The notes under the pieces: generated by a model
The model's input: only the letters and a program-made list of their open reading frames with translations
Databases searched by the model: none
What the model was told of the DNA's origin: nothing
Assembly: GCF_000955905.1 (NCBI RefSeq)
Contig: NZ_CP011097.1
Coordinates: forward strand, 817,957-881,956
DNA from: Candidatus Nitrosotenuis cloacae
Lineage (GTDB): Archaea; Thermoproteota; Nitrososphaeria; Nitrososphaerales; Nitrosopumilaceae
Length of the DNA stretch: 64,000 bases
Direction of reading: 5' to 3'
Shown: positions 11,864-57,443 of the stretch, one piece after another
Layout: each line of letters begins with the position of its first letter
How positions within the stretch are numbered: position 1 is the first letter of the stretch
Made by a program: the position numbers and the translations under genes

Positions 11864-13540
11864 CTACCAAATAGGGCTGGTTACTGCGCCTTGCGCAGCA
11901 GATCCTACAAGTGATGCATATTTTGCCAATGCTCCTGACTCATAGTTTGGCTTGCGCGGCGTCCATTGTTTTCTTCTGTTTTCCATCTCGTTTGGTGAAA
12001 TGTGCAGGTCAATCTTGTTAGTTTCTGTATCTACTGTGATTTCATCGCCATCATTTACTAGTGCAATGTTTCCGCCAACATAGGCCTCTGGCGCCACATG
12101 ACCAATCATGAACCCTCGAGTTGCACCTGAAAATCTACCATCAGTTACCATTGCTACTTTTTCGCCCAAGCCTTGGCCTACCAAGGCAGCAGTGACTGCA
12201 AGCATCTCTCGCATTCCAGGCCCACCCTTTGGACCCTCATATCGTATCACTACTACATCGCCTTCTTTGATCTTACCCTGCGATACTGCATCAAATGCCA
12301 ATTCTTCCCTATCAAAGCACTTGGCCTTTCCAGTAAATTTGGTGATTTTAACGCCTGACATTTTGACTACGGCGCCATCTGGTGCCAAAGAGCCCCTGAG
12401 TATTACGGCAGTTCCGGTTTGGTGTAATGGGTTTGCCAAGGGTTTTACAATATCGTCGTTTGATGGCGGTAATGCTATGTTGTCCAGATTTTGCTTCATG
12501 GTTTTTCCGGTTATGGTCAGAACATTCTCGTGTAGTAATTTTCTGTCAAGCAGTTTTTTGAGCATCAATGGCACGCCGCCAACTTTATCCAGATCATTCA
12601 TCACATACATTCCGCCTGGTTTGAGATCAGCTACGTGTGGTACTTTTCTTCTTACTCGCTCAAAGTCATCATAGGTTAGTTTGACTTTGGCCTCATGAGA
12701 TATTGCCAACAAGTGCAATATGGCATTGGTTGAACCACCGATTGCATTTAGTATTGTTATGGCATTCTCAAATGCCTCAAATGTCAGAATATCACGGGGT
12801 CGAATGTTATTTTTGAGTGCTTGAACGCATGCAACGCCTGTATCGTACACCATTTTTTCTCTTCTTTCATCTTCTGCTGGAGGTGATGCACTACCAGGCA
12901 ATGCAATTCCTAATGCTTCGGAAATTGACGCCATTGTATTTGCAGTAAACATACCACCGCAAGAACCAGCGGTTGGACATGCATAGTTTTCAATGTTTTT
13001 GAGTGCCTCTAGTGTGAGATTTCCAGCGTCATATGCTCCGACTGCCTCGTACACATCTTGTACTGTGAGCTGTTTTCCATTTAGCATGCCCGGCATTATA
13101 GTTCCACCATACACGAATATTGATGGTAGATTCAATCGAGCCATTGCCATCATTGTGCCAGGCAAGCTCTTATCACACCCTGCAATTCCTACCAGTCCAT
13201 CATATTGATGTGCACGCACCATCAATTCTATAGAATCTGCAATTACCTCTCTTGATATCAGTGAAGACTTCATTCCTTCGTGGCCCATGGCTATCCCATC
13301 GGATACTGCTATGGTGGAAAATTCTCTTGGGGTAAATCCCGCATCTGACACTCCTTGCTTTGCCTTGATTGCTAGTCTTGGCAGGTGAATATTACAAGGT
13401 GTGGCCTCATTTCCAGTGTGACACACGCCAATAAACGGTTTATCTAAATCATTGTCAGTTAGGCCCATTGCCTTGTACATGGCTCGGTGTGGGGCCCGTG
13501 ATGTTCCCTCTACTACGTTTCTGCTTGATATTTCCATCAT
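11864..13540 (-). CDS. ilvD: Dihydroxy-acid dehydratase
   Basis: This 558-aa Fe-S dehydratase forms the 2-keto acids of valine and isoleucine. Cluster and Mg ligands are visible: C in CHTGNEATPCN, CDKSLPG and CPTAGSCGGMFTANTM. The C-terminal GGPGMREML and DGRFSGATRG motifs are family hallmarks. Start ATG is 13540 or 13537; a TATA-like TTCTAATATT lies about 27 nt upstream. It stands alone, with the other branched-chain gene in the window (ilvA) far away at 59.8 kb. Confidence 0.97.
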   Translation of the reverse strand: MMEISSRNVVEGTSRAPHRAMYKAMGLTDNDLDKPFIGVCHTGNEATPCNIHLPRLAIKAKQGVSDAGFTPREFSTIAVSDGIAMGHEGMKSSLISREVIADSIELMVRAHQYDGLVGIAGCDKSLPGTMMAMARLNLPSIFVYGGTIMPGMLNGKQLTVQDVYEAVGAYDAGNLTLEALKNIENYACPTAGSCGGMFTANTMASISEALGIALPGSASPPAEDERREKMVYDTGVACVQALKNNIRPRDILTFEAFENAITILNAIGGSTNAILHLLAISHEAKVKLTYDDFERVRRKVPHVADLKPGGMYVMNDLDKVGGVPLMLKKLLDRKLLHENVLTITGKTMKQNLDNIALPPSNDDIVKPLANPLHQTGTAVILRGSLAPDGAVVKMSGVKITKFTGKAKCFDREELAFDAVSQGKIKEGDVVVIRYEGPKGGPGMREMLAVTAALVGQGLGEKVAMVTDGRFSGATRGFMIGHVAPEAYVGGNIALVNDGDEITVDTETNKIDLHISPNEMENRRKQWTPRKPNYESGALAKYASLVGSAAQGAVTSPIW

Positions 13541-56164: not shown

Positions 56165-56547
56165 AAAATACTCTTTACCTTTCTTATTATTTCATCTAAT
56201 GATTTTGCACTTGGATTTATCGAAATATAATATACAACATTTTTGTTTGGCACACATACTACGATTGCATTTTTGTGTCTAATTGTAACAGAGTCCAGAT
56301 TGCCAAAGGCTTTGGCCTGGGAATGGCGTAGTGTTATCAGGTTTGATATGATAAAGAACTCGTTTTTTGCATTCTCTGGGTTTAGCAGTGGCTTGAGTCC
56401 AGGCTGGATTATTCCAGTCAATGTGCGCCCAAATTCGTTTATCACCCCAGCATAGCGCACTGACTTTGATATGCCCAGTATTTTTTGGCAGTCTTTTCTG
56501 TACTGTATGATAGTGTCCTTCCATTTCTGCTCAGGGGTTTTGTTCAA
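56161..56547 (-). CDS. DUF6659-like protein
   Basis: A 128-aa protein whose middle, SVRYAGVINEFGRTLTGIIQPGLKPLL, then LRHSQAKAFGNLDSVTIRHK, resembles DUF6659 proteins common in thaumarchaea (roadblock-like fold). A role in signalling or GTPase control is inference. Strands near the end (VVYYISINPSAKSLDEI) complete the domain. Start ATG 56547. Confidence 0.55.
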   Translation of the reverse strand: MNKTPEQKWKDTIIQYRKDCQKILGISKSVRYAGVINEFGRTLTGIIQPGLKPLLNPENAKNEFFIISNLITLRHSQAKAFGNLDSVTIRHKNAIVVCVPNKNVVYYISINPSAKSLDEIIRKVKSIF

Positions 56548-56696
56548 TGGTTAGACTCAGCATACTAAAGTTAAAAAGAGTTTGTTCATGCCATAAAAAA
56601 TAAAATTTTGATCACAATAATTATTTGAATATCTCTTGGAGCTTTTTGTAAAAATTTGCACTAAATCTTAAATAAAATGATGTACATTGTATGACG

Positions 56697-56869
56697 ATGC
56701 ATAAGGACATCAGTTCTGAAGCATAAAAGGCGCGTGACCTAAGCAGAACGAATTGTGTTCCCGCTTGGTGCAATAGCACATTGGGATAGAGAGGTGTTCT
56801 CTCATGTTCTGCGTTTGTGGGTCACGCCTATTTGTTTTCCATTCTCAGAGAACGCTGTGACTATTTTTT
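56697..56869 (+). ncRNA. Candidate structured RNA 1 (about 170 nt)
   Basis: TATA-like cttaaataaa (56667-56676) predicts a start near 56697. The interior closes with AGGCG/CGCCT plus GTGACC/GGTCAC (56728-56739 with 56820-56829, 2-nt bulge), then GCAGAAC/GTTCTGC (56743-56749 with 56806-56812). Inside are hairpins GTGC-AATA-GCAC (56768-56779, stacked on CCC/GGG) and GAGAG-5 nt-CTCTC (56789-56803). An outer stem pairs about 56708-56719 with 56845-56859. Six T follow at 56864-56869, a natural terminator. No reading frame fits. It is not tRNA, 5S, SRP or RNase P as far as I can see. Confidence 0.6.
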
Positions 56870-56916
56870 CATAATAATCAAGATCAGTCTTAAATAACAT
56901 TTTGACGTATAATACC

Positions 56917-57021
56917 CAACGAGAAACTATCACTTCTGCGTCGTAGATTTGATAGAAATAGGAAAACGATCATGTTATTACGAAACTATTTCGTTGTAGT
57001 TTTCCACTTGTTTTCTCGTTG
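56917..57021 (+). ncRNA. Candidate structured RNA 2 (about 105 nt)
   Basis: TATA-like cttaaataa (56889-56897) lies about 25 nt before a 10-bp closing stem CAACGAGAAA/TTTCTCGTTG (56917-56926 with 57012-57021). Inside, CTATCA/TGATAG (56927-56932 with 56950-56955) and GGAAAAC/GTTTTCC (56961-56967 with 56999-57005, holding ACGAAA/TTTCGT) form two branches of a three-way junction. The orientation follows from the TATA distance; T-rich sequence follows. No open frame is present. It is independent of candidate 1 but shares its promoter type and branched layout. Confidence 0.55.
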
Positions 57022-57026
57022 TGATT

Positions 57027-57443
57027 TTAGACCTTTTTGTTCTTGAATGACTCAATTCTCTTTTTTAGTTCTGCATTTTCCAGTCTGAGTCGTTCGTTTT
57101 CTTCCTTGGTGGTATAGTCAGATGCCATTTTATGGCTCATTGGGTGTCCTGGCGCAAACATGCTAGATGACATGTCCATCAAACCAGATGCATGTTTTAG
57201 GTACATCTTGTTGAACTCATTAATCTTGCCAGTAAATGTGGTGTTTTCTGCAATCATTTTTTCCTTTAGCTTGGCAGGATTCATAGTCATTGGACCAACC
57301 ATTGCCGGCGGATATCTTAGTGAGGTAAACGGACTAAGGCTAAATCCCAGTGGATAGCCGTGCATCTCCATGAACGCTCGAATCTCAGTTGGATCCATGT
57401 TTTTCCCACGCCGGAACGGTATTTTTGCTTTGGCATTACGCAT
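57027..57443 (-). CDS. Unrecognised 138-aa protein with C-terminal coiled coil
   Basis: From ATG 57443 (or 57398, MDPTEIRAF) the protein has a middle part rich in Met/Pro/Phe (YPLGFSLSPFTSLRYPPAM) and a C-terminal heptad helix (RLRLENAELKKRIESFK). No signal peptide. TATA-like GATTAAAAATG lies about 30 nt upstream on the minus strand. An oligomeric scaffold role is possible. It is convergent to RNA candidate 2. Confidence 0.6.
   Translation of the reverse strand: MRNAKAKIPFRRGKNMDPTEIRAFMEMHGYPLGFSLSPFTSLRYPPAMVGPMTMNPAKLKEKMIAENTTFTGKINEFNKMYLKHASGLMDMSSSMFAPGHPMSHKMASDYTTKEENERLRLENAELKKRIESFKNKKV

Follow-up and report, generated by a model that had tools for sequence, protein, structure and literature searches.

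Positions 56697-56829 of the window constitute one copy of a previously undescribed, conserved RNA of the Nitrosopumilaceae that is restricted to this family. The RNA combines a short reading frame at its predicted 5′ end with a covarying structured domain. The ammonia oxidisers of this family rank among the most common marine microbes. Taken as a whole, our preferred reading is that of a stand-alone, ribosome-entered RNA that acts in trans as a translation-gated regulator, and we would put the probability of this complete statement at roughly 0.45; from the sequences compared, we infer its transcription, translation, occupancy by a single ribosome, gating and trans action.

The window is a stretch of 64,000 nucleotides (nt), C1:817957-881956 of the complete 1.62-Mb genome of Candidatus Nitrosotenuis. 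A DNA search of 12 relatives drawn from the same genus recovered copies of the RNA in every one, mostly two per genome. Two covariance models were built, the first from 21 copies and a second, broader one from 87 copies. With the genus-trained model, 154 of the 300 class genomes drawn were positive, every one of them within a single family, which we take from general knowledge of the group to be the Nitrosopumilaceae; this model missed some family genomes in the draw, of which the broader model recovered G058, G104 and G119. When 398 genomes of the phylum were scored with the final 87-copy model, all 63 family genomes drawn for this scoring were positive, with one to four copies each, and none of the other 335 genomes matched. 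The window's own genome carries three copies (C1:23744, C1:1313519 and the window copy), and the window copy has the lowest score of the three.

The locus yielded no match in Rfam 15 at the gathering threshold. Searching positions 56500-57050 up to an E value of 10 returned only chance hits far below the cut-off, and six distant relatives had no match up to an E value of 1. We found no earlier description of the RNA in the literature searched, which was mostly outside subscription journals, and almost nothing published on regulatory RNAs of ammonia-oxidising archaea of this family. A sequence-only reading of the window had proposed a conserved noncoding RNA of this lineage, new if absent from Rfam, and had named a lack of conservation or covariation in related genomes as what would speak against it. 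The proposal survives, as both lineage-wide conservation and strong covariation are present and Rfam holds no match.

The features of the window copy are collected in Table 1. Its predicted fold has a free energy of −58.7 kcal/mol (z = −2.9), and only 1 of 200 shuffled sequences folded as well. In the 87-copy alignment, 28 of the 34 pairs show compensatory change, i.e., each of the two sides has changed at least once, and 93.8% of the cells are paired. The covariation score reached 0.313, compared with 0.143 ± 0.005 in shuffles (0 of 500 as high) and 0.04-0.06 with slid partners; this alignment was fitted to the covariance model and is therefore biased towards its fold. A mutual-information scan of the same alignment likewise placed pairs of the structure at the top, and compensatory changes were already present in the first alignment, made with MAFFT alone. 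These comparisons showed that the predicted P1-P4 fold is backed by strong covariation, and we consider it nearly certain that this is a real structured RNA family. P1 opens in most relatives with a conserved GCG located 3-5 nt past the stop codon of the short frame, and conserved unpaired stretches lie between P2 and P3. The bulged closing stem, the second 7-bp stem and the two hairpins that had been read from the window's letters correspond to P1, P2, P3 and P4, respectively; an outer pairing proposed around them proved not to be conserved. The motif ACGAGAGGA in P4 recalls the sarcin-ricin loop, a resemblance that was judged to be chance because the P4 stem covaries. No covariation in the 87-copy alignment supported a pseudoknot or switch pairing between the frame and the P1-P4 domain, and an AAAGG/CCUUU pairing considered in Nitrosopumilus copies was rejected as absent from Nitrosotenuis.

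Table 1. Predicted features of the window copy (positions are those of the window)
Feature	Position	Strand	Evidence
TATA box CTTAAATA of the RNA promoter	56667-56674	+	TTAAATA present in almost every copy
Leaderless micro-ORF, 9 codons + stop (M H K D I S S E A TAA), ATGCATAAGGACATCAGTTCTGAAGCATAA; forms hairpin H0	56697-56726	+	Frame intact in 87/87 aligned and 19/20 held-out copies
P1 5′ strand, bulged closing stem, GGCGCGTGACCTA	56729-56741	+	6/9 P1 pairs with compensatory changes
P2 5′ strand, GCAGAAC	56743-56749	+	Compensatory changes in 7/7 pairs; 98.7% of cells paired
P3 hairpin; its sequence and length both vary	56760-56785	+	Covariation in 7/7 modelled pairs, with the highest-ranking pairs of the alignment
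P4 hairpin GAGAGGTGTTCTCTC with a G-NNN-U loop, the best conserved of the hairpins	56789-56803	+	97.9% of cells paired; outer pairs covary
P2 3′ strand, GTTCTGC	56806-56812	+	Covariation; pairs with 56743-56749
P1 3′ strand, GGGTCACGCC	56819-56828	+	Covariation; conservation ends here
U-rich tract, probable terminator and 3′ end	56829-56840	+	Directly after P1 in nearly all copies; termination predicted

In most of the 87 copies, 28 nt separate the first T of the TATA box from the start codon that follows it. The box of the window copy is centred approximately 26 nt upstream of 56697, as the sequence-only reading had placed it, and sequence conservation begins at 56697, the predicted 5′ end. 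By analogy with other archaeal promoters, transcription would be expected to start at the AUG or within a few nucleotides of it; with the start codon 28 nt past the TATA box, the transcript should therefore be leaderless. Conservation ends at ...GGGUCACGCC (about 56829), and the U-rich tract that follows (TATTTGTTTT in the window, TTTTAATTTTC in most relatives) is likely to be the 3′ end. The predicted RNA is thus approximately 135 nt long, with its own TATA promoter and a U-tract end. Whereas the earlier 5′ boundary of 56697 coincides with the start of conservation, the 3′ boundary of 56869 has to be withdrawn: the six-T run at 56864-56869, then taken for a terminator, lies about 35 nt past the conserved end and 20 nt before the TATA box of another RNA.

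This other RNA is a second conserved structured RNA directly downstream (window 56889-57025). It has its own TATA box CTTAAATA (56889-56896), a predicted start near 56918, a closing stem AACGAGAA/TTCTCGTT and two hairpins, of which one covaries and the second is conserved; the z score of the element is −4.7. It has no Rfam match and no start codon at its 5′ end, and it was found in 46 of 200 genomes of the class, distributed over four genera of the Nitrosopumilaceae. The two RNAs are 0.7 kb apart in genome G052 (C12:11026-11156 and 11877-11981) and mostly unlinked elsewhere.

Just 5′ of the TATA box (window 56658-56674) we observed an A/T-rich inverted repeat, TGTAAAAATTTGCA in the window and of the TGTAAAAATTTACA or TTCAAAAAATTTGAA type in relatives, which is possibly the site of a regulator. 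The promoter itself, TTAAATA followed at near-fixed spacing by TTCCTATA, is nearly private to the RNA in the six genomes searched; the promoter of the window copy is without the TTCCTATA part. The same rare arrangement, TTAAATA-N7-TTCCTATA, also occurs at a gene for a zinc-ribbon protein (MTCKGICSRY...; L204, 1500-1985; G000, C1:1419548-1419569), which suggests that the RNA and this gene are co-regulated.

Every one of the 87 copies carries a start codon (ATG in 86, GTG in 1), a short frame and an in-frame stop (TAA in 70, TAG in 10 and TGA in 7). The frame is nine codons long in 84 copies, eight in one and ten in two. Among 20 distant copies held out from model building, 18 have nine codons, one has eight (L180) and one is decayed (L184), with TAA, TAG and TGA stops in 6, 3 and 10 copies, respectively. 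In L190 and L191, the ATG runs directly into a TGA, and a nine-codon frame starts instead at a GTG two bases later, which is 28 nt from the TATA box; L193 allows two overlapping frames of nine codons. By parsimony on a tree computed from the structured part only, about 212 changes have occurred within the 30 nt of the frame in the 84 nine-codon copies, and every frame is intact. Because every copy ends in a stop, the nine changes at positions 2 and 3 of the stop codon are stop-to-stop only. When an equal number of changes was simulated, a mean of 31 of the 84 frames survived (maximum, 69) and all survived in 0 of 1,000 runs, although the exact odds are rough, as the simulation placed changes randomly outside the AUG and ignored the hairpin. 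Each of the 52 distinct ORF sequences is predicted to form the hairpin H0 within the frame (mean z of −2.8), and the spacer between the stop and P1 measures 3-5 nt in most copies. The frame also persists in unrelated sequences, such as those encoding MFVKPLRMA, MLVQCRMMD and MQNRVNYNE. We consider it very probable that the short frame is translated. The description of the locus as a structured RNA was correct for the fold and missed the leaderless nine-codon frame in the 5′ hairpin.

The extended search also revealed a distinct third subfamily (L183, L185-L187 and L196-L198; about 1000-1220), in which GUGAGGAGAAUGCUUUUCAC replaces P4 and the nine-codon frame is retained with TAA, TAG and TGA stops. 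L184 (1035-1158) is a decayed, AT-rich third copy that no longer has the frame and in which much of the stem structure is gone, as if the two were lost together. One reverse-strand match in L195 mirrors the true copy and was set aside. No viral contig matched the search pattern, which sets a minimum of 38 nt from AGAAC to GAGAGG and so fits mainly Nitrosotenuis; because of this requirement, the contig scan named mostly Nitrosotenuis records.

The encoded peptide varies freely. The 87 copies specify 46 peptides, ranging from MPKDIIPID, present in 25 of them, to MLVQCRMMD and MFVKPLRMA, with no invariant residue after the Met and no conserved sensory codons. Codon positions 1, 2 and 3 underwent 55, 81 and 66 changes, respectively, so the second position changes most, and paralogues within one genome encode different peptides. 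The alignments showed that the start, the length, the stop, the internal hairpin and the spacer from stop to P1 are kept and the peptide is free. This pattern suggests that the RNA is built for ribosome entry for a purpose other than peptide production.

With regard to genomic context, the window copy lies in an interval free of proteins (56548-57026), as had been noted before. The next downstream gene is antisense in about 80 of the 87 loci, and the RNA therefore appears to stand alone and not as a cis leader. The commonest copy is flanked by a divergent gene for a short-chain dehydrogenase and by a convergent gene that encodes a small membrane-anchored protein and lies next to a TFB gene (names of neighbours were assigned by reading the sequences), and the 3′ end of the RNA abuts the stop codon of the convergent gene. 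Other copies occupy other locations, and contexts differ between paralogues.

A cis leader of the downstream gene, be it a leader-peptide attenuator or a riboswitch, would accord with the second Nitrosotenuis copy, which lies 80-100 nt upstream of a corA-like transporter gene. Given the antisense genes faced by most copies, the unlike surroundings of paralogues and the U-tract directly after P1, genomic context largely refutes this explanation, and we regard it as extremely unlikely. The nonapeptide could instead be a signal or effector and the RNA its messenger, and the recurrence of MPKDIIPID would be in line with that; the diversity of the other peptides, the preponderance of changes at second codon positions and the disagreement between paralogues of the same genome run counter to this, and the pattern of changes over codon positions renders it quite unlikely.

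If the RNA were purely structural, the AUG, the hairpin and the UAA would be structural or promoter motifs that no ribosome enters. The retention of H0 in all distinct sequences is consistent with this, and small RNAs of Haloferax can carry ribosome occupancy without coding potential (PMC12482152). However, three stop codons interchange, frames of 8, 9 and 10 codons all remain in frame, GTG substitutes for ATG and the frame survives in sequences that are otherwise unrelated, so a purely structural role seems improbable. We consider somewhat unlikely, though deserving more weight, a dual-use small RNA whose structured part acts in trans by base pairing or protein binding and in which translation of the micro-ORF only sets stability or turnover. 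It draws on the same data as the gated regulator: the fixed length and free peptide fit it, as do the conserved unpaired stretches. It leaves unexplained, however, why the frame has nine codons and not any short length, and why it ends 3-5 nt from P1. If translation only tunes the stability of the RNA, the RNA sits closer to a known kind.

The translation-gated regulator that we prefer relies on leaderless initiation, which is established in archaea, where 30S complexes form directly on a 5′ AUG or GUG (PMC11698992). One ribosome would load at the leaderless AUG, open H0, read the nine codons and halt at the stop codon just before the stable P1-P4 domain. Nine codons correspond to about one ribosome footprint, and therefore only one ribosome would fit at a time; by a reckoning from general knowledge, a ribosome positioned on the stop codon would extend with its leading edge to the base of P1. 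H0 would form only without a ribosome present. The peptide would not be what matters; the decisive events would be that a ribosome enters and that it terminates at a set distance from P1. With ribosomes available, the 5′ module would be occupied and P1 pushed on or held open; upon failure of initiation, H0 would close and the P1-P4 domain would be free for a protein or RNA partner. We tentatively propose that the RNA may represent a new translation-sensing class, in which a single ribosome, loaded on a leaderless frame of constant nine-codon length, switches the regulatory domain attached to it and so reports the availability of ribosomes or initiator tRNA to the cell. The presence of the RNA in every family genome scored with the final model, often in multiple copies, together with selection on length and not on peptide, suggests a function for which translating the frame is itself the signal. 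The AUG, the nine codons, the stop and P1 offer a precise handle for direct tests, and cultured members of the family exist.

Comparison with known systems placed the RNA apart from each of them. The genome's only matches to archaeal RNase P RNA (RF00373) and archaeal SRP RNA (RF01857) lie elsewhere, at C1:1074413-1074693 and C1:121160-121470, respectively, and ARAGORN found no tmRNA anywhere in the window and no tRNA at the locus. Like tmRNA, the RNA is predicted to be a structured molecule bearing a short frame read by a ribosome; unlike the tag ORF of tmRNA, which is without a start codon, its frame has its own 5′ start codon (AUG or GUG in all intact copies), and a tRNA-like acceptor domain is not visible in its fold. 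A leader-peptide attenuator acting in cis was rejected on two grounds, the antisense gene downstream of most copies and the absence of conserved sensory codons. A precedent is rnTrpL/peTrpL, the trp attenuator small RNA of Sinorhizobium meliloti, which carries a leaderless 14-codon ORF and acts in trans (PMC7298713). Both would share a 5′ end that coincides with the AUG of a short leaderless frame, a structured downstream part and a stand-alone product presumed, for the archaeal RNA, to act in trans. However, rnTrpL is bacterial, is the terminated leader of trpE(G) and encodes a functional peptide (PMC7298713), whereas the archaeal RNA lacks both a regulated gene downstream and a conserved peptide, and its frame is fixed at nine codons. 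With regard to a dual-function small RNA of this type, the short frame of the archaeal RNA is strongly constrained in the 87 as well as in the held-out copies and is predicted to be translated; a conserved functional peptide is at odds with its codon-position changes. Ribosome-associated small RNAs of Haloferax (PMC12482152) are likewise archaeal, and ribosomes enter or bind them, as we predict for the present RNA; they are, however, individual transcripts from ribosome profiling, and the RNA of the Nitrosopumilaceae is a covarying family whose frame is strictly kept and which is known only from sequence. Tan1, a 229-nt RNA of marine group II Euryarchaeota, is, according to the part of its description available to us, also a structured noncoding RNA confined to one marine archaeal lineage; compared by that description only, it differs in phylum and size, and the part available mentions no reading frame (PMC5069720). 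Because it lacks a defining feature of each neighbouring kind tested, namely, the known Rfam families, attenuators acting in cis, tmRNA and dual-function RNAs that encode a peptide, the RNA would constitute a new category.
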